A stretch of 64,000 nt of DNA from the NCBI GenBank assembly GCA_951799425.1, contig OX637391.1, positions 11,728,551-11,792,550 of the forward strand, given 5' to 3'. The stretch comes from Ilex aquifolium. Its lineage: Eukaryota > Streptophyta > Magnoliopsida > Aquifoliales > Aquifoliaceae. The notes below the pieces were generated by a model that had not been told where the DNA came from, did no database searches, and worked only from the letters and a program-made list of their open reading frames with translations. Positions 11,970 through 62,039 of this stretch are shown in pieces (position 1 is the stretch's first letter; each line of letters opens with the position of its first letter). The position numbers and the translations under genes are program-made.

Positions 11970-12634
11970 GGAGGATTACACCAGACTCCCTGTTATTTAA
12001 TCATTCAGACCTCTTATTATTTCAAATATTATACACAAACCCCTTAAAATTTATACATTCATAACATTTAAACCCCTGCGGTCAAATGTCCACTAGCACA
12101 CCCGTTAATAAATTACACGTAGACCTCCTAAAACATAATTAGTATATAATTATACTATCTATTGGAATAAAATTAAAAAATCAAAAAAGAGGTCAAACTA
12201 TAATAGATACAATATATTCTAATTTTAATTGGGGTAATTTGGTCGTTTAAACGACCAAATTAAATTCCAATAGACATTATAATTATATACTAATTATAAT
12301 TTTTTAAGAAAAAAATAGATTTTTATTTTTAATTTTATTTCAATAAATTTCATAATAGAACATGAATTTTGGTTGTAAAATTTAAAATAGTTGATATTCT
12401 ATTTTTAATTTGAGTATTTTTTTATTTAAATATAATATTTTAAACTTGAGGGTCTAAGTATTACATGCTACAAACTTCAGGGGTTCTGGATGTAATTTGC
12501 TAACGGATGTTGATGACGGGAGTCTAAGTATTACGTGTGTACAAACTTCAGAGGATCTGTGTATAATAGTTTAAATGTCAAGAAGTCTGAGTGATTAAGT
12601 GACAAACCTCATAAGGTTTAGATGTAATTCTCCC
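11970..12634. mobile_element. Fold-back transposon, 8-bp target duplication
   Basis: This 665-bp element starts GGAGGATTACACC and ends GATGTAATTCTCCC. TTAAATTT flanks both sides (11962-11969 and 12635-12642). The arms pair over most of their length. The centre (12235-12262) is a perfect 28-bp palindrome built on TTTGGTCGTTTAAACGACC. Words such as 'no-more-than CAAACTTCAGGGG' recur in each arm. It is related to 48541-49560. There is no ORF, and it could form a long hairpin RNA if transcribed. Confidence 0.75.
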
Positions 12635-39300: not shown

Positions 39301-42300
39301 CAAAATTTCGTTTCGAAACGTTTCTGTTTCCAAGGAGATCAAAACGAATCAGTGATGGAATCAAAATTCTAATACTTCAAAATATTTCATAATGTTTTGA
39401 GGTATTTTGTCATATTTCAATGCACTTGCACAATTATTTCGGAATGTTTCAAACAAGGATCAAAATATCGTTTCGAGGTACCGTTTTGGTAAGCTCAAAA
39501 ACGGAAACGTTTTGGGAACGCAATGGAAACGCAGAAAAAATATGGAAATACAAATACAATCCATTTATTTATAAAGATAAGCTTAATAATTGATTAATTC
39601 AACATATTTATTGGATTTACATCTATTTATACAAGAATAAATTTAAATTAGAGGAAAAAAAAAGATTGACATGAGGCGAAAATCACTTAAATATGATATG
39701 TATAACACTTTTAAATTAAAATATTATCTAATTAATAATATTATTTTATTATAATACTAATTTAGTAATTAATAATATTAACACTTCGTGCAACATGTTA
39801 TTATACTAATTTGTGCAGCATATTATTATAATACTAATTTATTAAATTGCATCTTCAAATTAATAAATAACATTATTTCATTAATATTAAAATCATTGTA
39901 TACACAATTTGTACACTCATAAATACTTAATTCTAGATATTTAACAAATAAGGTATAATTAATAAAATGACTTGCAATTATTTAATATACCAATTTAATA
40001 AATAATAATAATATAAAAGAATAATTACAAAAAGAAAAAAAAATAATGAAGGGTATTAAATGAAATTAATGGTACTTATGTATACCTAAAAATTAAAAGT
40101 TATAATGCAGTGGGGTATTAAATGTAACTTTTCATAGTTATAACAAAAAAAAAAAAAATATACAAAAGCCAGAAGAAGAGTCAGTCATGTCTCTCTCACC
40201 CACGAACACAGACAGCGACAGAGAGAAGAGAGAAAGGCAATGGTGATGCCAATGCCGGTGCTGGTGCTGGTGCCGGAGAGAAAGAGAGAGAGAAGAAGAA
40301 GAAGATACTTGGTAGCTCATGGGTGGCAGCTTGCAGCGATGAAGACCTAAGTCCTAAGCCCTAGATCTGCGTGGATGGGGGCTAGATCTACTCAAATATG
40401 GACTCAAAGAGGTATACTGAACTTTTTTCCTTCAATTTCTACTGTATAGTCTATATATGTGTCTTTCTCTCTCTCTTCGATTTCATTTGGGTGTGCCTTT
40501 CTCTCTCTATTCTCTCTGCTTTTTTTTTTTTTGCTTGGAAGACCTGGACCTGTGTACATGTGATCTTTGTTTTTCCCCTTTTTTTTTGGGCTTGGAGGAC
40601 TTTACTCTGGAATGCTGTCGAATATTTCGTCGAAACGGTCCGCCACAGCGACGTTTCGACCGAAACTTTGGAATTTTGGGATTCAAGCCATGTTTCGTTT
40701 CGGTGTGTTGAAAATCCGAAATGTTTCGGACGTATCGACACGACATTTCGTTCCTTGGTTTCAAAATATTTCAAGAGACTTTGATATATTTCGACCAATG
40801 TTTTGGAAAAATAATTCTTAAATTTTTTTTTTTTTTCATTTTGTTTCCCAAATAGATGGAAACGTTTTCGAAACATGTCAAAACGTTTCCGTTTCCTAAC
40901 TAACCGAAACAATGTACAGAAACGAAATTTTGATCCTTGTCCCTATGTTATTTCGAAAATATCTTGGGATCATCATGTTGTTTTAAAATAACTCGAGGGT
41001 TTTGAGGGTAGTAATTTACCCCATATTATACCTTAAATCCCGAGGAAAGTAGACAAGTAGTTACGGACGTCCATAAAAGTAGTAGTACAAAAGGCCGATC
41101 AAGTCACACATTATCAAAACTTGTTTTTATTTTTAATTGGTAATATGTTCATAATGACATCTACACTATATATTATTACGAACAAATTAGTTGGGAGAGG
41201 CATTGGGATTTCTTCCCTCCTCATTCTATTTTTTCCTAGAATTTTTGTTTATTTACTTACAAAACAAGATTTTATCAAGTCATTTTATGCCACATATCCC
41301 ATGTAACTACCCATTCACCCCCACTAATTAACTACCATTTATTTAGATTTTCTAACCTCCACGCCACTAATTAACTCACTTATTTATTTTTTTTTTTTTT
41401 TAAATTATTTGTATCACCCTATAATTTACCGTAACTATTATCCAATATCTCAAATAATGGGATAAAAAAGTTTAGAAAGTTTGAGAAAATTATAAATTTC
41501 GTGCATCACAAAGGATCGATACTAGTTCTAAATTAAACTAATGAAAATAACAGGACTAGCAGGTGTACTTTGGAGCAAACATTATAATCTTGCCAAATGG
41601 ATGGGTAGGCTTCTTGAAGTTGGACAACTTAAACTCCAAACCACCTACAATAACCACATATTGACAAGTATTGGAAAGGAAAATAAAAACCGACAATAAT
41701 AATACAGCTAGTACAGTTAGTATAAAAAAGTCATAGTCACTAAATACGCAATACGTTTGGAACACAAACTGGCCCTCCTTTTAAAGTCTCTGTCTTTAAA
41801 TATATACAAAAAGACAAGTCAAGAGTTTGAGAATGGTAGAGAAAGCAAATAGATGTTGAAGGCTGTTAGAACACTATGCCAGTTCAAAATTGAGGATTTT
41901 CTGTCTCACCAGATAACGATTCGATTCAGCATGCATACATTGCATATTGTACATGGTAAGAAGGTTGCTGAAGAGGATATTGCATACCTAGCCACCATTG
42001 TACCGACTCCATCTCTTTGAAACAATTCCTTTAATAAAACTCCGCCAATAGTTCCATCTAATAGGTGAACTCTCTGAACCCCTCCCTGATGGAAAAGCAA
42101 AATAATGGAAAAGGCTGTTAAATACTTAACATAAAATGCATCATAGGAATCAATAAAAGAACACTTGAGGGCTATGAAGCACGGATACTTCGAAATGGTC
42201 AAAGTATCGGTATCGGATACGTTTTGGATACCGATACGCCTCCGATACGGCCGGATACGTATCGGATTTGGCTGAGACGTATCCGAAAATTAAAAAAATA

Positions 42301-45300
42301 AATTTGATTTTCGGATACGGCCGGATACACCTCCGATACGGCCGGATACGCCTCCGATACTTTTCGGATACGGCGGGGTATTACTTGAATTTTTTAAAAA
42401 ATATAGGGGCACAAGAGCAAATATGTTTGAGCCCTTATTTGCAAATATGTATGATTTATAAATGATAGAATGGTTAGTTATTATTATATATCTTTGGTAG
42501 ATGTGTGATTCACTTTATAAATCATAATTATTACATTAAATATAATAATAAAATTTAAAAAAATATATATTTTATGGACGTATCCTAGCCGTATCCGTAT
42601 CCTATTTTTTTAAGTTTTGCCGTATCGCCGTATCCCGTATCGCCGTATCCATATCCGTGCTTCATAGCTTGAGGGTATTTCCTAGGGCCTGACAAAACCT
42701 CTCCCAAGTAAACTTGATCAATGTTGAGTCTACAAATAACCTCTTCCTTCCTTTTCGTTTTTTCAGGATTAGTACAACATATATACCGAAGTTGTAAAAT
42801 GAACTTGAACTCCGCTGTCCGCACCCCCCCTTTCGGGATGGCAGGAGGTACCATTAAAGCTATCAGTTGGTAGAGTTGAGAAACTCAAAAATGAATAATT
42901 GATTCAGTCTTTCAATATGAAACAATGGAAATATGATGTCATCATTTAGAAGCAGAAATCATCTTAGAACGCAAGGAGGGAACCAAAACGTGCTTCTAAC
43001 CAGCATCACCATTTGCAATTGTTCAGTATTTCTATGACAAACTACATTCAGAATCATATGCTTAAAATAAACAGAGTTAGACCAGCTACCAATGTCTTTC
43101 TGAACCTCACCCTTTGGCTGTTGCACACTCTATGTCATTTGACATATTTCACAACAGAGAAGAGAAGAGCCTAACAATCTATCACTGGCCTGACATGAAA
43201 AGCTTACATAAAATAATTTTAGACCATCATTCTACTGAAAGATTGAAGTTTGAAGGTTTAACAAGAGGCATTTTTGCTGATCAGCCAATCGTGAATAAGA
43301 CTTGGAGCCAAATATCAAAGCTATTAGTTTAGCATATTTTCACTGTTGATACCAAATTTTGCTAAAAACATATAGCAGCAAATACAACTCAGATGTAGGT
43401 GTGACCGATGTTACACGAATCATTTTTACCAGCAGTTGAAAGAAGTGAAACAACAAGGAACATCATAGGCAAAACCACAACTCTCTTTAGCTTGCATTAC
43501 ATATTGCACCTCCTTACCAATGATTTGAATATATGAAGAACGAATATATAGCACATTCACAGCATCAAGAAATAACATACAAAAAGTCAATGATGCTTAT
43601 TACTATAAGATTAAAAATGTGTTTTTTGTTAGGTTGATCAAGTTACAAGTATAATGGGTGACCTGATAATGTGTGTCTATTGATACAACTGTGGACTTAC
43701 TCTGCAAACAAAGGCGGCAGCAGCCAATTCTGAGGTGTAACCATTCAATCGGCTCAGCCTCTCTTGACCTCCAATGGCAAAACCTTGTTCACTAGACCAT
43801 AGTCCATTCCCATTGTCAAAGCCAACACCATTCTGAAACTTTACAGTATATCCATCTCTAAAACCATTCCCATTCACTGGAGAAGGGACAGTTCCATTGG
43901 TATCTTTGTGTTCAAGACAAGTAAGATCATCCCGAGCAACAGCTTTCACATAGTTAGCGGCTATCTCGCTTTCCTCAGCTCGCTTGCGAATCAACAAGTC
44001 GGCCTCTTGGAGAGGCAAAAAACGAATAAGACGCCCACACTCATCCTCAATAGGGCCATCTATAATGCAGATAAGCTTCTCTGCTCCCAGAGCCAATGCA
44101 CAAGCCGTAGCAACTTCATATGTGCTGGAATAAAGAGAAGCATGAGACATTCAGAAATTGTCAATGGATTATACGTCATACAGCATCATAAGACTATCAA
44201 AAGCAGTCTCATCTAATCGATTTACAAATGGTTAGCATGCATTGTATATACAACGTCTGTATATGACTACAATACCATGCCATACCATAGGCATAATTGC
44301 ATCCCATCACCAATGCAGAGTACATTAAAGGTACACGAGGGAACCAAGGGATGATGCATTGCATTTATGATTGTTAGACGCATAACTCTGGAATAATTGA
44401 TAAGAACCAATTATTGTCTTCTCCTCATTCAGACTTGCTTAAGGGTTGAGAGTTGACACCAGAGTATATACAAGAAGAATTTTTTTTCTTATAACAATGT
44501 ACCGTGCTGATTACAAGAAGTAGCACAGTGTTATTCAAAGATTTCAATCTAAACCTATTAAATTATCAACTCTTCATGTACCAATGTTTCTCATTGCTGC
44601 CTACTAATTTGTCCACAATTTTTTTTATGTTCACCTATTTTTCTGCCTTCACCTTTATGATCAGACCAAAGCACTACTTACCTCGTCAGTCTTAATTTTA
44701 GTAAAAACTGCCCCAACGAGGATACTTATGCAATGTATCTAATCTAATTATGTATGTGGCAAAGTTCTAAGAAATCCAAAATGGATTACAGGTGAAAAAC
44801 AAAGAAAACAAATGAAGGGGAAACCAAGCATGGATTTTGGAATAAAAAGAAAAAAAACTCTCATAGATAAGAAGTAGAAGCTGTTCTGAGAAACACCCTA
44901 TATAATTCTGCCTAAAAGTCATATGCTAGAGCAGAGGGGAAAATTGAAGCAAAAACTTAATGTACAATCAGATCATGCCAAGCAGTAACAAAGATACCTA
45001 TTAAAAGCCATATAGCATACTTGCAATTTAATACTTCTCCAGAGCTGGAATAAGCAAGATTGCTTAAGATCACTATGCACTCCTGATCAAGCCTCTGATG
45101 AATGCGAGATACATCTATTTTCTTCACTTCGCCTGTTGCTCCAAAATCAATGCCTTCAACAACTCCTCTTCTCTGCCAAAAAGAATATGTCAAACTCACA
45201 GCAAAACCAAAATGAAAAACAAATAAACCATGCATACTGAGCGATAAGTTTCAGAAGGCCATTGATCATACCAAAACAAGGCAACAAAATAAAATATTAA

Positions 45301-47587
45301 ACAAAAATGATACATGCCGAGTTTGCAATAAAACTGTGCTCACCTTAGCTGCAAGAAAATTACCACTAGCAACACTGACACCATCATGCCAACGACTATT
45401 GTCGCCATGACGACGGACGCCACTTAAGGAGGGTCCAGGAGATAGCTTTGCCTCTATCATTATACGAATCCTCCCAGCTGCGTCCATTGATGCCTTGAGA
45501 GAATTAGAGTCTGTAATTCTGTATCGACCAACATACTTGGGCTCACTTCCTGGAAGAAAAATGCATCAGTTTACCAGCTATTTGACAATATGATGAATTA
45601 TGAATTTAGCCCAAAGGAAACTGTAGCTATCGTGAAATTAGACGGAATATACTGTCAAAGTGTTAGGCCTAAGAATAATAAGTGAAAAAAGGCTGTCTAC
45701 ACGCAAAATAGGCAGGGTCACTACGTATTATGTATAGCTTCTGGGAAACACGTCTATAATATTTGCCATTCTAACGAGTTACTGAATCAAAATGTTTTCT
45801 TATCCCAAATTGTTTTAAAGGTTATTACCAGATATAATTAAATTAGAGAACATTCGCGTATTAAGGATGAAGTTGGAAGGTCCATAATTAAAATCTTATA
45901 GTTTTAGTTCTCTTCTGGTCTGAAAGCTGTGTCTTTGACCATCATGTGAATAAGGTGCAAAATGGTAGGTCAATATGGACCCCAAAATCCAATCCACCCT
46001 GATGAAACATCCAACTTTCTTAGTCAAAGCAACAAGGCGGCAAAAAAAGTCCTACAACCTCAATATCATCACTACAGAATAGTAAGCCTATAAAACATAT
46101 GGACACCAAACATCCAATCCACCTTGATGAAGCATCGAACTACTTAGTCAAAGCAACAAGGCAAAACCAGTCACACAACCTCAATATGATCACTACATAT
46201 GACAGTAAGCCTATATAACATCTTGGGCCTCTCGGGCCATGATAATCATTTGTACATGAAGGAAAGTACCCCAAAAAAAACGATAATATACTGCCAAAAA
46301 TTCAAAATGAACCAATAAGATCACAAGCAAACAAAAAAAAAGTTTGGCGTTGCGCATTCTGTGAGACTTTGTTGGGTGGCACCAGTACCATGTCATCTAT
46401 GATATGTTTGGATGTTATGGGTCATAGGGAAAGAGAAGGATGAAGACCATTTGGCGTGGTGCTTTTTTTGCTACTATTTGGGTCATTTGGTTGGTGTGAA
46501 ACACAAGTATCTTGGAAGAAAAAAGTCAGGAGGTTGAACTGTTATGGCTTCCTTTTGTTCTTTAGACACTAAAGAGTTCGAGAATGTTCCTCTTTTTTGC
46601 ACTATGGCAATTTGGACAGCTTCTTGCATAATGTAGTATTATATGACTTTGTTTTGCCCGTCATTAGATTGGACGACTTGTCCACCTTTGGTTGGTTTTT
46701 GTTACTCCTTTTATCTTATTCTATTAATAAAATTGATGTTTCCTATTAAAAATAAATAAATAAAAAAAGTTACGCCAGAGCTGAAAGAAAACAAGACATT
46801 GAAACACAAAGCAACCATGTTTCAATTACCTCTCTCAGCTAAAAGCTTGTCAATTTGCACATGGGTTCCTGGAACTATAACAAATTTGATCCCCAATCCA
46901 TGGAGGAGAGAGATATCCTGCAGTTCAAAAACAATCAAGGCAGTGACACACATGCAAAAAGACTTTATCACAAAACTTAGAGAACTAAAAGAGATACATA
47001 CAGATACACAGAAAAAAATTGAGAATTCCCTCAAATCAATGCAACCAACTTCCAAAGAAGCTCTTTCCCCAAAAAAACAACTTCCAAAGAAGCAACAATT
47101 TAAGGAATAATATGCCAAAATACACCATCATAATTTATTTACAATGATATACACAATTCACTATTCATATAAACCTAGCATAGATTATGCATGTGGAAAC
47201 AAAAGGGAAAGAATAGAAACTTGCCATGAGAATGGGATCCAAATGAGGACTATCAACAATTTCAGCAGAAATTAGAACAACAAATGTACTGCCTCGGTGG
47301 GCGAGAAAGTACGGCCAAGATTCACGGAAAAACTGCACAAATTGATCATCTTTCACAGCATTACTGGCTTCAGTGATGTCGGTCCTCTCTGTTTCCCCCA
47401 AAATACAATCACACCTCCCTCTAATTTTCTTTCCAGACTTACCCACCACAGGCGAGAGATTTATCTCATTGAACCCACCAAATCTCTCCCCAATTCCTTT
47501 TGGACGCTCCCAAATAGTGGTCGGTATAGAAAATTGTCGGGTGTGGGTTTGAAGAGGAATGCAAGGGCTTGTAAGCGAAGTAGCCAT
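36336..47587 (-). CDS. NAGS: N-acetylglutamate synthase (amino-acid N-acetyltransferase), chloroplast
   Basis: It makes N-acetylglutamate from glutamate and acetyl-CoA, the first step of arginine synthesis, in plastids. Ten exons in transcript order: 47587-47225, 46917-46830, 45549-45344, 45172-45021, 44124-43701, 42085-41988, 38415-38304, 38212-38053, 37345-37273 and 36486-36336. All phases fit and give 608 residues, the size of plant NAGS. Residues 1-80 are a transit-peptide-like leader. The amino-acid-kinase-like domain (about 90-400) shows [54 protein letters not shown] and [19 protein letters not shown] linker of GNG/DNGNG repeats precedes [15 protein letters not shown]. The GNAT domain (about 445-600) has the acetyl-CoA loop RGEGQG (525-530). 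Intron 1 has a GC donor (ATG|GCAAGT); the others are GT-AG. Introns 2, 5 and 6 hold transposons. Two extra first exons lie upstream. Confidence 0.94.
39295..40939. mobile_element. hAT-like element, 1645 bp, in NAGS intron 6
   Basis: It begins CAAGATCAAAATTTCGTTTC and ends ACGAAATTTTGATCCTTG, and a perfect 8-bp duplication TCCCTATG flanks it (39287-39294 and 40940-40947). The first 160 bp match the left half of the 267-bp copy in DG1. A second left-type end (CAAGGATCAAAATATCG) starts at 39454, so one copy probably inserted into another. The middle (about 40190-40560) has CT-rich and leader-like sequence that may be captured host DNA. No transposase is seen. Confidence 0.78.
42172..42667. mobile_element. 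TIR element rich in CGGATACG, 496 bp, in NAGS intron 5
   Basis: The ends CTATGAAGCACGGATA and TATCCGTGCTTCATAG are perfect inverse complements. CTTGAGGG flanks both sides (42164-42171 and 42668-42675), an exact 8-bp duplication that fits hAT. Subterminal DNA holds many CGGATACG and CCGATACG words on the left and their inverses on the right, probably transposase binding repeats. There is no ORF. The intact duplication suggests a fairly recent insertion. Confidence 0.88.
46385..46775 (+). mobile_element. LINE 3'-end fragment in NAGS intron 2
   Basis: The stretch has the look of a plant LINE tail: a decayed coding end, then TATTCTATTAATAAAATTGATG and an A-rich tail (AAAAATAAATAAATAAAAAAAG). It lies antisense to NAGS between exons 2 and 3. 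Strong 5' truncation is typical of LINEs. The call rests on the tail and general resemblance. Confidence 0.5.
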
Positions 47588-48345: not shown

Positions 48346-48540
48346 TAATATAAAATGATGCATGTGTCCCTCGAAAAGACTTTTTTTCCTCTTAAAAAAA
48401 AAAAAAAAACTAAAGTTTTAAGTCAATTTCAAACAAGTCCAATATAATAGGAGTTACAAGAGTTAGTGACATCAAAAATTATGTATGCAACCTATTATAC
48501 ATAGAATATGAATTCTATAGTGCTGTAAATATTAATTATT

Positions 48541-49560
48541 GGGAGAATTACATTTAGATCTCCTGAGATTTGGTATTTAATTACTCAGATCTCCTGACAT
48601 TTGAAATATTATACACAGACTCTCTGAGGTTTGTAGGTGCGTAACAGTTAAACTTCTGCCGCCAATGTCCTTTAGTATATCCGTTAATAAATTACACTCA
48701 GACCCCCTGAATTTATAGGCATATAATATTTAGATCCCTCATGTTTAAAATGTTATACTTAAATCACAAAAACTCCAATCAAATGTAGAATATTAAATAT
48801 TTAAATTTTACAATCAAAATTCATGTTCTATTGTACCATTTATTGAAAAAATTCAATTTTTTTTTAAAAAAATCGTAATTAAAATACAATTATACTATAT
48901 ATTGAAATAAAACTAAAAAATCAAATAAGGGGTCTAAGTCATTCATAATAGAAAATAAATTTTACAACCAAAAATTATATTATATTATATCATTTATTGA
49001 AATAAAATCAAAAAAAAATTTAATTTTTTTCTGAAAAAATCATAATTAGTATACAATTATACTATCTATTAAAATAAAATTAAAAAATCAAATAAGGGGT
49101 CTAACTGTAATAGATACAATATCTCTTAGCTTTAATTTAAGTAATTTGGTAATTTAATTTGGTCATTAAATGACCAAATTAAATTTCAATAGATAGTATA
49201 ATTATATACTAATTATGATTTTTTTAAGAAAAAAAATTAAATTTTCATTTTTGATTTTATTTTAATAAATGTCATAATAAAATATGAATTTTGATTGTAA
49301 AATTTAAAATATTTGATATTGTACATTTGATTGGAGTATTTTTTGTCTAAGTATAACATTTAAAACTTGAATGGTCTAAATATTACACGCTTAAAAATTT
49401 CAGGGGATCTAAGTACAATTTATTAACGATATTAACGGACATTGACGGCAAGAGTCTAAGTGTTATGCTTCTACAAACCTCAAGGGATCTGTGTATAATA
49501 TTTCAAATGTCAAATATTCTAAATGATTAAGTGACAAACTTCAAAGATATGTATAATTTT
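48541..49560. mobile_element. Fold-back transposon related to 11970-12634
   Basis: It starts GGGAGAATTACATTTAGA and ends in a worn inverse copy (ATGTATAATTTT). Phrases shared with the 12-kb copy include ATTATACACAGA, CCGTTAATAAATTACAC and the near-palindrome centred on GGTCATTAAATGACC (about 49161-49175). Internal repetition of AATTATACTAT…AAAATAAAACT makes it longer (about 1 kb). No clear target duplication remains, so it is older or rearranged. Confidence 0.65.
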
Positions 49561-50620
49561 AATATCATCCTCTATTTCCATTGTATTCTTAATCCTCTTG
49601 CATGTGGCGCACGAGGGCTATTTTCTAACTGGAGTATTATTGGAGCAATTCCAGCAATATCCAACAAAAAACAATAGAAAAAATAAAACTTGACTTTCTT
49701 TTGTTTTCTTCTTATTTTCTCATCTTTACGTCTCTATCCCCATCAAATAGGGAAAACTAAATTCGTTTACCAATTAATTTTCCCGGTTCTCATTCAAAAA
49801 AAACACCAGTTTTTATTATTTATTTTTTTGTATTTTCCATCCTTTCCTCTATACTCTCCCTCCTAAGCAAACTGCTTATTATCGTTTTTCTCTTTGAAGC
49901 CTTCTCTCTACCCATACCTAAGAGCATCTCTAACGAGGATCGCTACTCCTTCCTTTTAGCTGTTTTAGCGAGTAATTCGCACAAATTCAGCTCCAACGTC
50001 CTAACTATCCACCTTACCAAAATCTAGGAAGCCAAAGTTACTCGCCAGATCTGCCGAGGAGAAATTGCTCGCCAATTGCTACTGCTAATCCTTGCTGCTG
50101 TTGCTGCTGATCCTTGCTGTTGCTGCTGTGAACCAGGTATTCCTTGCTACTGCTGATCCTTGATGCTGCTGTCAACCAGATGAGTGAAATGCCCCTCCCC
50201 CAAATTCTGAAACTCCCCCCAAATTTTGAAAACTCCTTAGTTTTTATGTATAATAGAATATTTACATTTAGACCCTTATGAAATATTAATATAAGTATTT
50301 GAGACGTATTGTGTAATTGATTTTTGTTATTTAAAGTGGATAGGTGTTAAATTGTCATTAAATTGTATTATTTAAAGTTTAATTAGAATTATTATTATTG
50401 TATGATTTTGGTTGGGTTGATGATTATACATGTTTTGAGTTGAATTTTTGAAATATATTATTGAAAATTAGTTTAAGTTAGTTGAAATAATAGCTAAAAT
50501 AAAGAGCGTGGTTGGAGTGAATTTAAAAAAAAATGACTACCTAAAATAGAGAATATAATACTTAAATATATTTTGAGTAACTATTTTATTGAGCAGGTTT
50601 GGAATTGGTCTAACACACCA

Positions 50621-50673: not shown

Positions 50674-51027
50674 CTCGAGTATGGAACCCAAGAAAGGACT
50701 GTCAACAATTTCCGCGGATAATATGAGGACGAATGTACTGCCTCTATGTGCCTGAAAATATGGATGAGCTTCTCTCATTATCTTCACAAACTCCTCAGTC
50801 TCAGACATCCAATTCCATCCATTCCCGAAATCACCATTTTTGCAACACCTCAGAAACCACCTTTTCCTCTCACTTATCCCCACTCCCAAACACTCTACTT
50901 TTCTCATCAAATCAAAACTCTTCCTCCTACTAAAATCTGTTTGGATCCATATATTGCAATATGGAGCCCAAGCTTCACCATGGTGTTGCTGAGAAAACCA
51001 TGGCATTGGTTTCAACTTTGTAGCCAT
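50674..51027 (-). CDS. NAGS first-exon copy B (alternative first exon or truncated duplicate)
   Basis: There are 118 open codons from MATKLKPMPWF to …GSILE, ending at CTCGAG|GTATCC, a canonical GT donor in phase 0. The last 40 residues (FVKIMREAHPYFQAHRGSTF then [19 protein letters not shown]) are the start of the NAGS kinase-like domain. The first 80 are basic and hydrophobic, like a transit peptide. If spliced to the NAGS acceptor at 46917 the join reads [16 protein letters not shown], matching the family. No later NAGS exon follows before the real gene. The start Met is chosen by alignment with copy C; the frame is open further upstream. Confidence 0.8.
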
Positions 51028-51329
51028 TAATGTACGCACCCCAAACCTCGAAAGTCCCACAAGCGATGGCACAGAACGATGGGTAAAAGAGAAAATGATC
51101 ATTTTTTAAGGCCAGACAATCTTTATATTTTATGCTACTATGTACTCTGTTAAAAGAGAAAGAAAATATTCTTTGATATCACGTCACTGATATTTGGTAA
51201 TCACTAACCAAGTATAAAAAAAATCTCGCGTGGATTAAATAAATCTCACTATTTCAATAACTAATCATAACCACCACGTTGAATATAAAACTTCATGTTA
51301 GAATAGAGGGGTTTACTTATTTTATATAA

Positions 51330-54300
51330 TCTATATAATAAAGTAGAGCGAAGTTTGAATCCAAAAGACAAAGAGAGGTCCAGATCGTTTTGGGACAAAT
51401 CTAACGGATAATGTAATCCCAACATAAAAGACGGTTCAGATCATCTCAAAAAAATTTGATCCAATGGTCTATGATTAGTCCTAAATTTTTTTTTCCCGCC
51501 CACAAAGAAACCTATCTCTCGCGCATCTCTCTCTCTCACGCCTCTCTCTCTCTCTCACGCTTCTCTCTCCCAATCTATCACGCCTCTCTCTCTCTCTCTC
51601 CCAATAGGGATGGGAGACTGTTATCTCTTCCACAAATATAGTTTCCCTTTAACAATGCTCTTTGTGCTTCAGGGATCATGCTCTCACATCAACGCTGACA
51701 ATGTCAAGATCTTCACAACTCCAAGAAAGCTAATTTGCTCTGTTCAGGAACCAAACGATGCGACAAGAACCAAACCAGGAGGTTTACAAGTCCATCAAGC
51801 AAATTAGAACGGATTTCCACATCTAGGTATGACCAAAATGGCCTATCACAAGATGCAAATGATGAGACCGAAACATATGGAAATTTAGCTCAGAGTCGGT
51901 GTATTCAACAGAAGATGTCTGTGTGGATTCTGATCTACAAGAGTCTCCAAATGTGAGACCTGGAAGTAAAACTGAATCACAAGGTATTAATGTTCGAAAA
52001 CATCATCGGAAACGTACTGTCAACATCTTTCGTGGTCTCTTTGTTCTCCTATTTGCAGTTTTTGTTTGTATAGTTTCATACAGTCATAACGTTTTATTTT
52101 GATGGTCTTGCTTTTTTGGTTGTTTTATTTTCCTATATTGGTTGTTTTATTTTCCTGTATTGGTTTATGCTTTGAAATTCTACCATCACCATTTGTTGTT
52201 CGATTCAGATTTGTGGTTTCATACTGATTTTGTTTTTTCGATTTGATCATCAGGCAATTCCATTTTTGTTATTTGATTGATCCTCAGGCAATTCCAGCGG
52301 TGTCACAGCCAAGCCAACGCTAGAGCCAATTGTCGGTGCGAAGCAAACCGAACGCCACTAGAACGTCGCCGGACTGGCAAGTATTATTTCTATCTCTTTC
52401 TCCTTCCTTTCTCTGCTCCTTTCTTTTCTCTACCTCTCTCTTTGGAAAATCTCCTTCACCACCACAACCACCAGTTTCTACTATTAACCCCCCGGACCCC
52501 TACAACTCACACACACACAAATTCACACATCTCCAATCCAGTCCACCGACATCACCGTAACTCCCCTTCCACCCCTCTCTGCTCCACCCCTGAGTCGTAG
52601 TTTTCGAAGCCCATCCACCTCCTAAGCCACTACCACCCTCTGCTGCCCTAGCCACCATGCCAAACACCGTTAAATTTAGCGTCTACGAAGTGAGTACGTG
52701 TGAGATAAAAATAAACTTATTGAGAGGGTGAAGTAAAATCTTGATGCTTTAATTCCCTCATCTCCGACTCTCTCTGGTGGACTACAAGCTCTTTTTCTCT
52801 ATACGTCTCCAAAATCTTGGTGTGCTTCCGTGTTATATAGGTGCCTCCACGTGTTTGTTAAATTGCTCCATTGATAAAAAGAGTTCAAGTTCTCATTTGT
52901 TTCTATGTTTTATAATCAAGAAACACTATTTCGAATCCATTTTTACCACTTGGGAAAATATAGTGGCACCCAACTATTCGATGTAAATTCTCATAACAAT
53001 AAATAGGTGTATGTTTGTGTGGGGAGTGTTTGATTTGTGAAGGAAAACACAAGCTTCACCATGAGTTTGAAGTTGGTATTGATGAATGTAGTGTTGGTGG
53101 TGTACTGGTGTGGTTATTGATTTCATGGTGTCAAACGACCACAAGGCTATCATCGTCAATGGGTATTTCTAATTTTGATTCACTTGATATTTTTAGATTA
53201 ATTTTATTGTGTAGATTTTGTATTCCTGCTTATTTAAATTTGTAGCATACCCTTAATTGTAATGTTGTCTAATATTGATTAACATGACATTCTTAGATTT
53301 ATTTTACTGGGGAAATTTTCTATTCATGTTTATATCAATAACAAATCAAATATATTATGCAAAATTCTACAAGTGTGTTTTCTTTGTTCCTTCAAGTTGT
53401 ATTTGTCCATGCTATTTGATTTTATTTTTGTTATTGGTGAAAAATTGTGGAATTTTGTATATGGGTAGGTGTGCAAAAGGAAAGAATGGTGCCAGAGGAT
53501 ATGTATGTGCTATCTTCGAGTGGGTTTATATTGTCTTCCCCACTGGCCAACCCGTACCCGCATAAGCCTCCCAAGTGTTCTGATTGTGCCCCTGTTCATG
53601 AAGGTATAATTTATTATGTTAAAAATGGTCCCGACAGTCTGATCTCACAAATACACACATATCGCTCTCTGTTCTTACATCTCTTTGGCGAACACACACA
53701 CATCTAACTCTCTTTGTTCTCACCTCCCTTTCACGCCCGCACACAGTTATAATTTTTATTTTCCCAATTAGTCACAGGAAATTTATTATGCTGCAATTCA
53801 TCATCTTTTGGAACAATGGGCCTCTTTTTGTTGCTGAAAGGTATGTGTTTGAACTTCTTTAGAAATATGGCTTGATGGGTAATTAGTTGTATAGGTATTA
53901 TTTTGTTACTGGGGATATTTTTGCAGAATTCTTGGTATGTTTCGTTGTTTTTGACTAATTGAAAATGGGTTATGGTTTGGTTTCTTTTTTCAAGTTTCAA
54001 TTTCCTCAAACGATGGTTGAATGGTCCACACTCCTGTCTGGGTTAGAAGGTGGACTGCCTTCAAGTTTTTCAGGGCCTTCCACATGATCTTTATGGTTAA
54101 ACTTGCGTGTGCGTGTGTGTTTGTCTTTACTGTTTGAAGTTACTTGGTCTTCTTGGTTTATATTGAGACTTTGGAATAAAACAGCTGAGTGTCTTTAAGA
54201 TCTTTCATATAAAGCACAACCTCTCTTGACTACATTTCAAAGGTTGCATTGCATCTAAAAACTCAAGAAAGATTGCTGCTACAGTTGACGTGTGTGGGTA

Positions 54301-56264
54301 TTTGTTTTATGTTAATTTTGCTTTTTGGGTACTTTATGAAAACTGGTGATGAGTAATAGGTATCCTAATTACTGATTTGGATAAAGAAATGAGATCATAT
54401 TGCAGAGTGTTGCATTGGAAGAATTAATGACAATTAAAATCAAATATTGGATTGATGTTGTTTTTATTGTTTTTAAATTTTTTTCTGCCAAGCAGCTTTA
54501 GTATTAGATTTTGTGTGCTTTATATATGATGATGAACTGTTTGTTATAATGCTATAATGAAAATAACTCAAACTGTGTTAACTCTTTGTGATCTCCTATG
54601 ATTTTAATGTTGTGAGCAACTTACCTATAACCTAACTTAGTGCAAAGATTTGCCATTAAATGTGGAATTCCCAATCCTTTTTATTGCTTAGTTGGTTAAA
54701 GGAGTATGCTATATTCCAATTGTTTATCACAGATCCAATCACATTTGTATGAGTTTGTGAAATTTGTTTGTATTTGGATTGGAGAGCAGGACTTCGGCAG
54801 TGGGATTAGTAGTGAGAGGGGGTGAAGACCATGTTGATGACTTCACTGATGCATGATGACCATTGTTGAATTTAAGGTTTGATTTGTGTGAGTTTTGTTT
54901 TTATATAATATTGGTTGTGTCAATAATGTGATTTGGTGGGTCTATCATGGTGGTGTTGGGTATATAGTGTAACTGTGTAAAATGACTATCAAGAATTAGA
55001 TGTTTTATTTTGTCCACTCACATGCGCATTTGTATGTTGTTTTGGTTTGATTAGAATGTCTTATATTTGTAGTGCATTGTATAATGTTCCACATTAGGTC
55101 ATCAAGTTGAATTTTTTGGTTTTTTTACTCCTTTAGATTGAACTTCTTGAAAAATGAATTGGAACTATATCGAGTTTAAATTATAATTTTTGAATTGAGT
55201 TGGTGACTGGGTGGACTGATTATTATTCTTAGTATGGTTATTGACAATCTTATTTTATTTCTTAGGTGGAAGGGTGTCTACGGTTTTGTGAAAGGTATTA
55301 CATGTTACCATTTTTTGCTTTTGAGTTATATAGACATGAGTCTAAGCAAAGTTTGATTTTAGATGTAAAAGAATATATAATGAGATGATTCTAAATTTGA
55401 TTTTATGCTTAGAAAATTATATTTTTAGATATTTTTTATTTGGGTTGTGATTGTAACCTACATTAATTTTGTATATAGTTTGATATGTTTTTGGAGTCCT
55501 CTTTTTAAGAAAGATTTTGTCCAAATTTTTTTAAAGAATAAAGAAATTTGACTTTGATTAAATGTTGATGATTGTTTTGTTTAGCATAGCATAGTGCCTT
55601 TGGAGACGGACATTTCTTCTAATAGCATAGGTTTGCAAATCCAATAAATGAAGATACATAAAAGAGCTTGGGGAAAAAAAAGAGTATATTAATTCTCAAT
55701 TTTTGTCATTTTAATTCTTTATTATTACTGGTTGATTTAGGCATAGTTGTTAGGTTCTTTTTTTTCTATCAATTTATGATATCTCCTTCGAGTCTTGATT
55801 TATAGAGTTAAATTCCATTTCTTTTTTGAAAAGCTAATTTTCCTTCGCTAATGAAGGTACTCATTTAGCCACATATCTAGCTTTTCGGCAACCCACCTGT
55901 TTTCAAATTCTCCAGTGGTGCAACTTTTTAGTAGTTGGGGGAAATATTATTCTTTCATATTGGCTTTTGGGATTGGGTGATGTGATGGTGTCCATACATG
56001 GATTATTTCAAATATATTGTGGTGGTATTGTGAATTATGATGATTGTTATGTATGATTGTAAGTTCTGTAGACATGTTTAGATTTTTATGGGTTCTTATT
56101 TTTAGAGAAAATTATGCCGAAATTTCTGGATAATAGTATGGACTACTTGATTTCAAATTGACAAGTTGTTTTAGGTTGCAAAGAGTCTTTAGGTAATGTA
56201 AGATTTTTCGAGTTTTAATTTAATTTTTCGTTATGCCGTGCCTTCAGGCACGGGCAATTACTAG
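51330..56264 (+). mobile_element. Non-autonomous Helitron, 4.9 kb, with captured host fragments
   Basis: The 5' end TCTATATAATAAAGTAG follows an A. The 3' end is CTAG followed by T, so it sits in the A|T target that Helitrons use. A GC hairpin (CCGTGCC-TTCA-GGCACGG, 56236-56253) stands 7 nt before CTAG. No Rep/helicase is seen. Captured pieces include a DEP1 exon (53469-53603) and an unrecognised coding-like stretch (51640-52100) ending KRTVNIFRGLFVLLFAVFV, a likely membrane segment. A CT-rich leader-like stretch lies at 52380-52680. It split the duplicated NAGS 5' flank. Confidence 0.85.
53469..53603 (+). pseudogene. Captured exon of DEP1 (methylthioribulose-1-P dehydratase / enolase-phosphatase)
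   Basis: [19 protein letters not shown] and [15 protein letters not shown] match the dehydratase part of plant DEP1, a methionine-salvage enzyme. The exon has its own acceptor (GGTAG|GTGTGC) and donor (GAAG|GTATAA). Near its end about two bases are missing relative to the expected CAPLFMK, so the frame is lost. It lies inside the Helitron, which explains a lone exon here. Confidence 0.85.
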
Positions 56265-56900
56265 TATTTTACTGTTATACAGTGATACCTCGTGCCAATG
56301 AAGACATTGTATTACCAATACTTAGGATTGTATTGAACCTGGGAAGAAAATTCCAAGTATGTAAAGTTATGTTTGGTTGGGGAGTCCCGAGTCCACAGGA
56401 AAATGGACTCACTGATATTTCAAACCTTTCTTCTTCTTTCTTTTGATTCAATGATCAAGCATATTCGAATTAATTTAAGCGCACTTCGATTAATTTTCTT
56501 CTCGGTCTGGTCAAAAGCAATTCATAACTAATCAAATAAATGCATTAAATTAGGTCACCAGACCTCTTACAACATTACCACCTTATATTTTATTCTATTT
56601 TTGTTCAATTATTGGAGTGTACATAAGTTATGAAACATGTTTAGGACGAGGGGTCCCAGAGTGTGCTCTTTGGTGGGGATAACATATGCTACTACCAAAC
56701 AAGCTAGTCTGAGAAAAAGAATAATAATTTGGTTTGTAGTTTGTACAAGACCAGACCAGGATATAGAATTATGCCGAATTATATTACAAGATTCCAATGG
56801 CATAAAAAAGTATGTGCTTTTTGCTAGTTCCTACTATGACCTGCTCAACTCCCGTATATGCTTCTTGCTAGTTAGGAAACAATCATAACGGATATTATTT
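56265..56900. repeat. Duplicated flank of the NAGS 5' region (pairs with about 60640-61940)
   Basis: GGATTGTATTGAACCTGG, TTTGGTTGGGGAGT, ACTACCAAACAAG and GATTCCAATGGCATAA find near matches, in the same order and orientation, at about 60668-60691, 60723, 61817 and 61890. With exon copies B and C this makes one direct duplication, later split by the Helitron on one side and a hAT-like element on the other. Confidence 0.6.
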
Positions 56901-56921
56901 ATTTATTTATTTTTTTTTTTT

Positions 56922-57222
56922 AGGGAGAATTATATTTTATATCCTAAAAAATTTAAGAATTTTTATTTTATATCTTTAAAGATTAAATTTCTTATATTAT
57001 ACCTTCAATATATCAAAAATATTACAATGTGTCCATTTTGTTAGATTTTGTTATGCTTTTCGTCAATGTTAATGGGATGATTTTTGACGAAAAAAATAAC
57101 ACAAAACTAGCAGAATGATCATATTGTAACACTTTTGATACAATGAGAGTACAATATAAAAAAATTTATGTTTGAGAGTACAAAATAAAAATCCTTAAAT
57201 CTTTGAGTGTATAAAATGCAAT
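56922..57222. mobile_element. TIR/fold-back element, about 300 bp
   Basis: GGGAGAATTATATTTTATA…AATTTAAGAATTTTTATTTT on the left pairs with the inverse at the right (AAAATAAAAATCCTTAAAT…ATGCAATTCACTT). The termini resemble the fold-back family at 48541. A short decayed relative is seen at about 60778-60900. Confidence 0.6.
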
Positions 57223-57289
57223 TCACTTTTTTGTTTAATGAGAAAACTCAGGAAGGCACAAGGTCATTTTGGACCCATTCTTGATTCTT

Positions 57290-57460
57290 GTAAGAGTAAA
57301 CCATGAATACATGCAATTATCTACAAATTACAAGTATCAGCCAAATTCGAGAGACATCAGTGAGGGTCAAACTCCTAACATCTCGGGTCTATGGTTCGTT
57401 TAAGTTCAATCTCAGACCGCTGGACTACTCGTACAAGATAATAAGTGACATTATTAATCG
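57290..57460 (-). mobile_element. SINE candidate, tRNA-derived
   Basis: On the minus strand TAGTCCAGCGG (A box) is followed about 50 bp later by GAGTTTGACCC (weak B box). No tail or target duplication is clear. Confidence 0.35.
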
Positions 57461-57469
57461 ATTATAATA

Positions 57470-60060
57470 AATAAAAAAAATCACAAATCAAAACAATATC
57501 TGTTGTTAGATTTTTTATTTTTTTTTTGGTATTATCGAAAACCACTTTTCAGCATCATAGTGATATCCTTATTAGTTTGAACTTTGAAGGGCTTTCCATC
57601 TTCAGTGTTTTAATAATTTCTTCATTGTTTTTTGGGTTTTTCATATTGGGTGGGGATATTTCCACATCACAAATATTCATTTTCACTCTATTTAATTTCT
57701 TATTATTAAACTACTAAATCCACTTTTTTTATATCAACCCTATTAGTAACTAAGTTCACCTCATGCTATACACACTCTATTAGTAATTAAGTTTGACGAG
57801 CCCATGCTATACAGTTATTTTATAAAAAGAGGTTTGGAGAAAAAAAAATGCAATAAACCCTTCACTTATTTGATAGGTTACACGGGTCATGTCTGGTAAC
57901 CCGTCAAATAAATGGGTTGTGTTCAATTTTTTTTAATTTTCACCCGTTTAATAAATGAGTCATGCACGGGTTGAGTGATTTTACCCTTATATATATGAGA
58001 AAGACAGAGTCTTAATTTGAAGAGAAAATAAAGAAAAGATGAATTAAAGAAGAGTAATTGAAGAAAGTGAGAGAAGAGAGAAAGAGTTGGATAAAAGAGA
58101 TAAGAAAGAGACAAAAATTTAAATAAGATATACACCATAACGACCCGAAAGAGAGATAAGAGAAAAATAATGATATAGAAAAAAGAGGAAAGAGATGGAT
58201 TAATGGAAGAGAGAGGAGAGAGAAATAGTGGAATATAATAGAGCGGAGAGAGAAAATAATTGAAGGAAGAGGTGAGAGAGGACAGTTTAATGTCACAGTC
58301 ACGCAATTTTATCAAAATATGCTTGATTAGCTCAAGGTCAAAATAGGAAATAAACAGAAAAAAAAGAAAAAGAAAAGAGTCTATTGAATATTTTTAGGAA
58401 CCAAGCACAACCCAACCATTTAGATCCGACCTGATGGATAGTTTACTTTACTACTGTCTGTCTACCCAACAAGCAAGTGGTGAACTGTCTTTATTTGAAT
58501 CGATTGGCCCAACTTCGAACAAAGCCATCAAGGGATTCACGATTAGCTCAACTATGCAAGCAAAAGACATGAGCGACAAGAATCAAATCAAATCAAGAGC
58601 ATGCCTGAGCCGAGCTACTAGGCCAAGGCTAGAATAGAAGAGAAAAAGAAACATATACAATGATTCACTTGACCGGGGCCTGTGACTAATCAGGTATTTT
58701 TCGTGTCTTTTTACTTTTTTGATTCAATAAAACTATGGTGACCACCTCCCTACAACATTTAAATTTCATTTTATTTGAATTTGCATTTCATTTACCTTTC
58801 TATTGGCCTTTCAATCGTTTTCCATCCTTCAATATTCGATCTCAATCTTCCTTCTCATTCATTTCACAAGCTAATACCTTCATTTCATCTTCTAATTTGT
58901 TCGTCCATCTCTCTGTTTGTGTCTAACTCGCCAACGAATCAAAACTAGTCAATATTCAACTTTCTAGTAATATCGGTTTTCCATATTCATCCATTAATTT
59001 TATACCCAGGTAATCCACACAATTTGATAAGACATTTAGGCATTGAATACTTGGAGTTTTGATATTAATATATTCACATTTCTAATGTTTGTCATAATTT
59101 CTGAAGAATGATATATTATATTGTAGAGACATGAAATAATATATATCAAGTGATTATGCCAATGTAGAATGGAATGAAGAAAATAATGAGAATGAAGAAA
59201 ACAATGAGAATGAAACAGGGAAAAATGTCTTCATATCATGTGTGGACTATTGGAAACAAAACATAGAACTGTCCTTGACACAGACAACTTTGAGAAATAA
59301 TGTGCCCATCAAAGCTCTTACAATATTATAATTCACGAATGATGTTGCAAAAGAATGGAAAAAATCTAAAAGACTATGATTTAGATTTAGATTTTTACCC
59401 AACCAACTAGAAAATATGGAATTACTTTATTGCTAGCGGTTCTTTTTCAAAAATAATATACTTGATTGATTTTTTTTTTTAATAGTCTCACCGGCCCGTA
59501 GAATAGTCTAGTAGTGGGTGAGTAGAGTCTGTGTATATTTGATGTCTAATCTTTTGTTTGTGTCTATTTGGTTCATAAGATTTCTAATTTATATCTACGT
59601 AATTCAATCTCAAACATTCGTTAAAAACTCGTGATGGTTCTAATCACGCGTCAATCACGTGATTGACATAAAGTGGGTTTTCTTTGTTAGGGAAGGGGAA
59701 AAAAAAAAAGAAGCAAGCATAACCAAAGTTCTTAGGAGTTTTTTTTCTCAAATAAGAAAAAGTGTTTTCCTTTTCTTTTCTCACCACCTATCTATCAAAC
59801 AAGAGAAAACAAGAAAAAATTAGCAATTTCTTCTTTCTTTTCTTTTCTTTTCTTCTAAACTCTAATCTATTTTGTCCCATCAAATAAGAAAAAAAAAAAA
59901 AGCAAAATGGATTTCTTTTCCTACCTTTTTCCCCATTATATTTCCTCTTCTCTTTCTTTTTCTGATTCGGGATTTAATTTCCTTTCTCTCCTTGCGTATC
60001 ATATTGATTGTATTTTTTCTCCCTCCAGCTCCATCACACTCAAATAAGTAACATACTCAC
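57470..60060. other. Intergenic, no recognised gene
   Basis: AT-rich DNA with a purine-rich block (58015-58290), an inverted MITE-like patch with ACGGGTCATG/CATGCACGGGT words (57875-57975) and CT-rich DNA before 60060. Open frames are low-complexity. Confidence 0.4.
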
Positions 60061-60090
60061 AGCTAGAGAGAGAGAGAGAGAGAGAGGTAC

Positions 60091-60444
60091 CTCGAGTATG
60101 GAACCCAAGAAAGGACTGTCAACAATTTCCGCAGATAATATGAGGACGAATGTGCTGCCTCTATGTGCCTGAAAATATGGCTGAGCTTCTCTCATTATCT
60201 TCACAAACTTCTCATTTTCCGCCATTGAATTCCACCCATTTCCACAGCTGCCATTACTACAACACCTCAGAAACAACCTTTTCTTGTCACATCTCTCCAT
60301 TCCCAAACACCCAACATTCCTCATCAAATCAAAGTTCTTCCTCCAAAGAAGATTTGTTTGGCTCCATAGATTGCAAAATGGTGCCCAATCTTCACCATCA
60401 CGTTGCTGGAAGAACCATGACCTTGATTTCAATGTCATAGCCAT
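60091..60444 (-). CDS. NAGS first-exon copy C (alternative first exon or truncated duplicate)
   Basis: There are 118 open codons, MAMTLKSRSWFF to …GSILE, ending CTCGAG|GTACCT, a GT donor in phase 0. Its last 40 residues equal copy B except H/Q at one site (REAQPYFQAHRGSTF), while the leader differs freely (WAPFCNLWSQTN against WAPYCNIWIQTD). The 5' leader is also similar (GATCATTTTCT, TCTCGTGGGATTTTC). A GA microsatellite lies just inside the following intron. Stronger conservation of the domain than of the leader is the pattern expected for coding sequence under constraint. Confidence 0.8.
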
Positions 60445-60976
60445 GAATATACAGACCCAAAAATCCAGTGAAGAAAATTTACTGCGGAAAGAAAATCCCA
60501 CGAGAAGTGGAACAGAAATATATGCAGCAAAGCGAAGAAGTTTGAGGTGGAGACAGAAAATGATCGGGAAAAGACAGATCATAATTGTAAGGCTTTGGGA
60601 ATCTTTTAAAACCTGCCAGGTGACCCTTGTCTTGTCTGTTTGAAACTTTGAAGAGATATGTACGTGGGATTGTATTTTGTATCGAACCTGCAAAATTCAA
60701 ACGGATATGCATGTAAGGGTTTGTTTGGTTGCGGAGTTATGGGTTTATATGGAGAAAAAATGACTCCATGTTATTACCGAGGGAATCTCATTGTAACACA
60801 TCGAAAGATATTTCGATTTTTACTGTTAGAGATTAATTTTTCATATTATACATTTAATATATTAAAAATGTTACGGCGCAACTCTTCTATTAGTTTTTGT
60901 TATTTTTAGAGTAATGTTATTTGAATTTAAAATTTTGATCTAATTTGTTGACATAATGGTGTGACTTTAGTAGAGC

Positions 60977-61497
60977 CAAAGGCGGCTTAAGCTAATTTGA
61001 GGCCTAAAACTGAAACATTAAATGAAGGCTTTTTTATTTTTAGTATTATTGTTTTAAAATAATTTTTTATTTTTAATTTTCTATATGAGGGGGAGACAAA
61101 ATAAGAATGTGTTAATGTTATTGATAAAGAGATTTCAACTTTTGTTTTTATTTTTTACCACAAAGAGGGAAAGAGAGTGTTTAATTTCAACTTTTGTTTT
61201 TGTTTTTATTTATTTTTTTTACCGAGAGAGATAGAGTGTGGGAGTAAATATGAGTTGATTTTTGAGTATTTTTTTTATTTCCAAGTTTTTAATGTTATGG
61301 ATTGGATAATAAGTCCAAATTATTGCAATAAAAATTTTGATTGGATTTAATTTTTTGGGGCTTTTTTGTAAGGTTTAAAATTTAATGGATTTAATTTTTT
61401 TTGGTGGGCTAGTGATGTACCTAAAATTATGGGGCCTTCTAAAAATTTAGCGCTTAAAGTCCATGCTTTTTTTTTTCATACTGTTGGGCCGGCCTTG
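60977..61497. mobile_element. hAT-like element, 521 bp
   Basis: It starts CAAAGGCGGCTTAAGC and ends GTTGGGCCGGCCTTG. AGTAGAGC (60969-60976) and AGTAGAAC (61498-61505) flank it as an 8-bp duplication with one mismatch. It interrupts a GAGTAATGTTATTTG MITE that begins about 60909. Confidence 0.65.
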
Positions 61498-62039
61498 AGT
61501 AGAACCATTGAATCAATATCAAGTTCCAATGTTTGATGGGATCATAATCAATCGAAAAGTCATAGTGAATTATATCAATAAATTATATCTCAATAACTTT
61601 GCTCTTATTTTTAATACATTAAAAGTGCAATTTAAAAATTTTAATATTGGGTTGTACAAAATGAACATTCATATTACAAAAGTATTTGTTTATATCATAA
61701 TCTTACCTTCTTTTGAGGACATCTTCACCTTATTCTGTATTGTCATGTAAATGCTTGTGAGGCATTTTATGAGAAGGGATCCAAGATTTTGCTTATGGGG
61801 ATGGCATGCACCGGCTACCAAACAGGATATTATGAGAAAAATATACTAAATGATTTGGTTTGTAGTAGGTCAGGATACCTACTCCTTGAGTCATAGGATT
61901 CCAATGTGATCTGTGCTTATTAGTTATTCCTTTGAAACCTACCTACAGCTATGGGCTTTTAGGTTAATAAGGATAGGTGTGTTTTTTTTTTTTTTTGGAT
62001 TTAAAGGATAATTAAAGGCATAAAGACTAATTTATTCTA

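Follow-up and report, generated by a model that had tools for sequence, protein, structure and literature searches.

In the PEP1 gene of Arabis alpina, the orthologue of FLC, the tandem exons 1a and 1b have a single exon 2 in common, to which each is spliced (PMC3527215). Among vertebrates, the UGT1, GCNT2 and protocadherin clusters feature tandem homologous first exons placed before one constant body, and gene conversion is prominent in the protocadherins (PMC1885805). Type I alternative first exons of plants are described as mutually exclusive, with common downstream exons and N-termini that can change (PMC2174465). As for NAGS itself, tomato SlNAGS1 is one gene with a predicted plastid leader, for which arginine feedback is proposed; the same source, a review, reports a single characterised plant NAGS (PMC4520006). 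Here the NAGS gene of holly (Ilex aquifolium) was analysed in a stretch of 64,000 nucleotides, called the window (C1:11728551-11792550), the whole-genome searches covering 800,232,872 bases in 103 contigs. Holly NAGS resembles the tomato gene in the above features, while its first exons resemble those of the vertebrate clusters: two candidate first exons, copies C and B, precede exon 1A of the complete gene, so that several homologous first exons are found in tandem, on one strand. Judging from the sequence, there is an even chance that these form a three-member variable-first-exon cluster of a gene that has one body, with B or C, or both, in use. The features concerned, in window positions, are the following.

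47587 to 36336, minus strand: complete NAGS gene, ten exons, 608 residues with exon 1A
47225..47587, minus strand: exon 1A, 121 codons, phase-0 end, GC donor (ATG/GCAAGT)
46830..46917, minus strand: NAGS exon 2, starting after CTGCAG; the acceptor that B and C would need
36336..46917, minus strand: NAGS exons 2-10, with GT-AG at every intron from 2 to 9; the sole NAGS body found genome-wide
50674..51027, minus strand: copy B, candidate first exon of NAGS, 118 codons counted from the MAT start, end GAG/GTATCC
60091..60444, minus strand: copy C, candidate first exon of NAGS, 118 codons counted from the MAM start, end GAG/GTACCT

The initial annotation had described B and C as open on the NAGS strand and ending in phase 0 at a GT donor, exon 1A also ending in phase 0; translation and reading of the donors bear out both statements. 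The two copies are stop-free over 118 codons, and the noncanonical donor belongs to exon 1A (intron 1, GC at 47224-47225), not to B or C. The length of "exactly 118 codons" is correct from the ATGs of the MA starts, but the count depends on the ATG chosen, since both copies have an in-frame ATG further upstream:

51028..51102, minus strand: upstream in-frame extension of B, 25 codons from the ATG at 51102
60445..60582, minus strand: upstream in-frame extension of C, 46 codons from the ATG at 60582; possible true N-terminus, weak homology to B

Joining to the acceptor at 46917, as had been suggested, is sound as far as the frame is concerned: with exons 2-10, B and C each give one uninterrupted frame of 605 residues. 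The open frame alone is weak evidence for either copy: 14 out of 1219 minus-strand ATGs are open for at least 118 codons, nested ones and true genes counted. The likeness among the three exons, on the other hand, is not due to chance. When B was compared to the window by tblastn, C was found with 71% identity (7e-55) and exon 1A with 37% (3e-14); in the whole genome, at E 0.001 or better, the B protein matches only B itself, C (71%) and exon 1A (57% over 48 residues). For the last 120 nt of B the genomic matches are B and C only, and capture of the exon by a repeat is therefore out.

The product of the exon 1A form scores above both curated NAGS cut-offs (NF003641, 446 vs 344 bits; TIGR01890, 420.1 vs 202.85). 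Searches of the genome with the first 444 residues of NAGS and with the TIGR01890 profile, in which only the best candidates were scored, returned one NAGS body, at this locus, and no NAGS paralogue elsewhere. A match on contig C4, tried as a second NAGS, is NAGK instead (argB, 270.5 vs a cut-off of 151.3 bits), and one on contig C10 (E 2.6) was taken as chance. The NAGK gene of this genome, at C4:44055861-44056886 (minus strand), encodes 341 residues in a single uninterrupted frame.

No exons 2-10 were found beside B or C, either by tblastn on the window or by exon-by-exon local alignment with reversed-peptide controls, the remnant search covering the gap between C and B, the gap between B and A, and 3.5 kb above C. 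A 20-residue match to exon 5 in the B-A gap (score 43) contains a stop and was dropped, as 6 of 300 shuffles reach its score. The downstream body that the first exons would share is one, none being found behind B or C individually. With one set of exons 2-10 in the genome, alternative first exons, as put forward in the initial annotation, are the most economical reading; its main competitor, orphaned exons of lost tandem genes, is weighed below.

The homology is strongest at the end of the exons, which encodes the beginning of the NAGS domain:

50674..50793, minus strand: last 40 codons of B, covering the N-terminal helix of NAGS and the first strand of its amino-acid-kinase fold
60091..60210, minus strand: last 40 codons of C, same NAGS N-terminal segment as B

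The ends of B and C match positions 3-45 or 4-45 of NF003641 and 1-38 of TIGR01890, and fit these profiles about as well as exon 1A: over the end piece NF003641 gives 28.0 bits for B, 28.4 for C and 28.4 for exon 1A, and TIGR01890 gives 22.3, 22.5 and 20.7, respectively. Alignment to Neisseria NAGS (2r8v) covers the N-terminal helix and the first strand in all three. The helix segment, FVKIMREAH/QPYFQAHRG in B and C, is different in A, and 14 of the last 40 residues differ both between A and B and between A and C. B and C had been reported to differ at one site over this segment: the sites are two (E79K, H88Q), one being true of the last 39 residues. In bacterial NAGS the N-terminal helix adjoins the arginine site and a hexamer interface; in the Neisseria enzyme the helices of neighbouring subunits interlace, and the helix end borders the arginine site (PMC4490483).

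Over the whole exon B and C differ at 57 out of 354 nt (16%); 53 of these differences fall within the 234 nt of the leader, and 4 within the 120 nt of the last 40 codons. For the leader, the rate of synonymous substitution (dS) is 0.40-0.64, depending on the method, and that of nonsynonymous substitution (dN) is 0.20-0.21. With 57 substitutions and such a leader dS, the copies are old. Recent duplication, one of the reasons first offered for the frames being still open, is ruled out by the divergence, by the leader dS and by flanks that are alike in patches only. Neither copy contains a stop, an outcome of P about 0.08-0.09 when the observed substitutions are placed at random. By blastn of B against C there is no gap within the 354-nt exon, the sole gap being located just past the donor. 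Repeat copies from four places of the genome, compared by blastn, were used as a yardstick (pieces of at least 250 nt, some with a common history): over 10,170 aligned positions, their 289 substitutions are accompanied by 45 indel events. For 57 substitutions 8.9 indels are expected, and the probability of finding none is about 1.4e-4, or 0.012 at half the rate.

The initial annotation had seen a constrained domain behind a loose leader. Part of this holds: over the last 40 codons dN/dS is 0.19 (NG86) or 0.33-0.34 (LWL85) for A-B and A-C, with p from 0 to 0.013 in neutral simulation, which supports constraint of old date on the lineages of A and of B/C. The comparison of B with C is less simple. 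Leader dN/dS is 0.33-0.50, a marginal departure from neutrality, and the 2 silent and 2 replacing differences in the last 40 codons have no power to reveal present selection. Synonymous differences themselves are depleted there: 25.7 sites hold 2 of them, whereas the leader has 17.5 over 40.5 sites (p=0.002). When a changepoint is placed at nt 235 it beats all 2000 permutations, although p is 0.074 with third positions alone; the fourfold sites are 5/11 vs 1/15. As amino-acid constraint leaves synonymous divergence unlowered, gene conversion of the 3' part, or else constraint at the nucleotide level, is to be called upon; the depletion suggests gene conversion as well as constraint.

Past the donors of B and C a CT repeat is followed by a stretch with no detectable likeness, about 0.2 kb long in C and 0.9 kb in B, and then by an island of similarity:

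49658..49756, minus strand: intron island behind B, about 100 nt, alike to the island behind C, about 0.9 kb past the donor
59793..59893, minus strand: intron island behind C, about 0.2 kb past the donor; 59700-60060 has no other genomic match

The alignment score of the two islands (66) is reached by none of 200 shuffles and by none of 246 other window stretches, the best of which scores 45. The duplicated unit extended at least 300 nt beyond the C donor; since the island is common to B and C, it reached into intron 1 and was not limited to the exon. A likeness ending exactly at the donor was dropped as a description after a significant 2-kb intron alignment, which was traced to this island of about 100 nt. 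Four further B-C intron comparisons lack significance, their scores being attained by 44 to 182 of 200 shuffles. Most of the intron behind the two copies is no longer alike, while the exon still is.

Upstream of the copies, past the first tens of bases, the likeness is weak. None of 500 shuffles attains the score of the 200-bp alignment, yet 4 of 420 other window stretches do. Different settings give p 0.005 for 200 bp and 0.215 for 700 bp; further up than the upstream ATGs, 85 of 118 controls score at least as well as the B-C pair. A conserved core promoter of B and C is not claimed, because other window stretches reach the upstream alignment score. TATAAA is found 45, 64 and 215 nt before the ATG in A, 100 and 299 nt in B and 305 nt in C, on a window background of about 1 per kb per strand.

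The gaps between the exons, and the region above C, contain dispersed repeats:

51329..56275: pieces of repeats in the C-B gap (51329-51639, 52189-53426, 53638-55642, 55643-56275), most copies 83-99% identical and distributed over many contigs
48539..49558: hairpin-like dispersed repeat between B and A, about 1 kb, long inverted arms, full-length copies 79-84%
60981..61500: dispersed repeat of 520 bp, situated some 540 bp above C, copies at 80-88%

The near end of the block between C and B is about 300 bp above the MAT start of B. The hairpin-like repeat has dozens of copies at 79-84%, and a related 0.5-kb copy is located at window positions 12130-12611. Leaving aside the frames of A, B and C, the 12 open reading frames of at least 85 aa in the interval from C to exon 1A have no Pfam match at E <=0.05, and thus no recognised gene interrupts this stretch. 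Upstream of C, on the same strand and outside the window, a NEMP-family piece (Pfam PF10225, 3.5e-12) is found on contig C1 at about 11.80 Mb (L018:7734-8036, minus strand). Within the NAGS gene, intron 5 contains, at about 42665-42172 (minus strand), an element which by eye is like a small inverted-repeat transposon, with ends TGAAGCACGGATA and an inverted copy; intron 6 (38416-41987, minus strand), 3.6 kb long, is repeat-laden, again by eye.

In the proposed arrangement, C, B and A would be three tandem first exons upstream of one common NAGS body (exons 2-10), each having a transcription start of its own and a phase-0 donor that is joined to the acceptor at 46917. The isoforms would have common catalytic domains, with a differing targeting leader and N-terminal helix. 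Transcription, splicing, targeting and altered regulation from B and C would all be expected under this scheme. A swap of the first exon would change leader and regulatory helix together; since in bacterial NAGS the helix borders the arginine site and interlaces the subunits, the isoforms would have different locations, and might also vary in arginine feedback or in the assembly of the hexamer. A more specific proposal is tentative, and rather doubtful: promoter choice would set both the destination of NAGS and the strength of its inhibition by arginine, conversion keeping the B and C helix alike while the leaders diverge. The donors of B and C appear usable, not strong: with a plant donor matrix they score 1.88 and 2.37, in a range of -0.98 to 5.59 for the GT donors of the gene itself. 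Starting from its upstream ATG, the first 40 residues of B contain no acidic residue and have a net charge of +5.

A number of observations weigh against the use of B and C as first exons. Both donors lack G at +5, and their scores are equalled or exceeded by 7% (B) and 5% (C) of random window GTs; a splice from C to exon 2 would span 13 kb, and repeats are found in the C-B gap as well as above both copies. Position -3 of the start ATG is T in both, A in exon 1A. In their first 40 residues the B and C leaders have 3-4 acidic residues (2 in A) and 5 Ser/Thr (9 in A): by composition, the leaders from the MA starts would be poorer plastid leaders than that of A. Identities to Neisseria NAGS over 41 columns are 12 for B and 12 for C, versus 14 for A. 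For the leader, neutral simulation gives p 0.04-0.11, depending on the transition share, so that constraint there is marginal. The zero-gap count in the exon hinges on the alignment scheme: when aligned globally under permissive settings, the exon acquires 4 gaps that compensate each other, for a small gain in score (429 vs 423). The excess of indels in the island, relative to the exon, has p 6.5e-7, 5.9e-5 or 0.15 under three gap settings, and because of this dependence it was not relied on as a yardstick. Finally, gene conversion could also preserve a dead exon and mask its decay.

Homology, open frames, donors, a single body and long survival without frame damage are observed directly. One body and three intact tandem first exons, with neither remnants nor frame damage over a long time, make the variable-first-exon cluster the most economical explanation. 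Its serious rival, a real possibility although short of an even chance, is that tandem full-length NAGS genes were ancestral and that the bodies behind C and B have been deleted, leaving relic first exons with a selection signature that is historical. What makes it serious is that the donors are mediocre and that conversion can mask decay; moreover, the few differences in the last 40 codons tell nothing of present selection, the duplicated unit exceeded the exon, and the repeats in the gaps could drive deletion. Partial tandem copies are frequent in plant genomes, and this was also counted in its favor. An origin of this kind is proposed by the PEP1 authors for the PEP1 partial duplication (PMC3527215). 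Yet two separate losses of nine exons would be needed, with no detectable remnant, and with two undamaged first exons left in place together with their donors; as neither exon has a stop or a blastn gap, both losses must then be recent. No signs of relic genes (remnants of downstream exons, frame damage) were found at B or C, a result to be read with the reservation that clean deletion would leave none either. The intron island fits the cluster and the relic genes equally, and leaves the balance where it was.

Within the cluster explanation, and with no share of its own, falls the unlikely case in which one of B and C works and the other is a dying copy, homogenised by gene conversion: the synonymous deficit is limited to the last 40 codons and, the upstream likeness being weak, the two promoters need not be equivalent, but both leaders are equally intact. 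Far less probable is that one body-less copy of the exon was duplicated locally, both copies drifting neutrally since. The leader differences, spread over codon positions as 12/20/21, with a marginal synonymous excess, are in line with such drift; against it stand the missing blastn gaps and stops, an undiminished fit to the NAGS profiles, close to that of exon 1A, and donors that are kept where most of the intron can no longer be aligned. Frames kept open by chance, as allowed by the initial annotation, are accordingly disfavoured. Slightly less credible still is the expression of B and C on their own, by read-through of the donor, as short N-terminal proteins that could join NAGS hexamers as regulators: the frames do run beyond the donor, with 174 and 218 residues from stop to stop, but the read-through tails are largely CT repeats, and otherwise differ.

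When the putative cluster is set beside the known systems, PEP1 is like B and C in being a plant partial tandem duplication of the first exon, including parts of promoter and intron 1, with slight upstream homology; it differs in that its transcripts have been shown, and that in accession Paj the proteins are predicted to be identical (PMC3527215). Holly NAGS has two extra candidate copies, which are diverged and whose proteins would differ. The paper on Type I alternative first exons does not use "tandem", "duplicat" or "homologous" in its main text (PMC2174465), whereas the NAGS first exons are homologous copies. The available text on tomato SlNAGS1 makes no mention of extra first exons (PMC4520006), and no alternative first exons of NAGS were found in the NAGS or first-exon literature among the matches listed, which does not prove their absence from print. 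The organisations of UGT1, GCNT2 and UGT2A have been termed vertebrate-specific, and the protocadherin clusters contain more than a dozen variable exons (PMC1885805). Vertebrate clusters diversify substrate or adhesion domains; in NAGS an organelle leader and a regulatory helix would be diversified instead. If B and C are not used, the locus illustrates cleanly how first exons can outlive the genes they belonged to. If they are used, one plant gene would pick both the destination of its product and its feedback helix by the choice of the first exon, a small plant counterpart of the vertebrate variable-first-exon clusters; what would be new is that divergent homologous first exons alter leader and feedback helix in an enzyme of primary metabolism.

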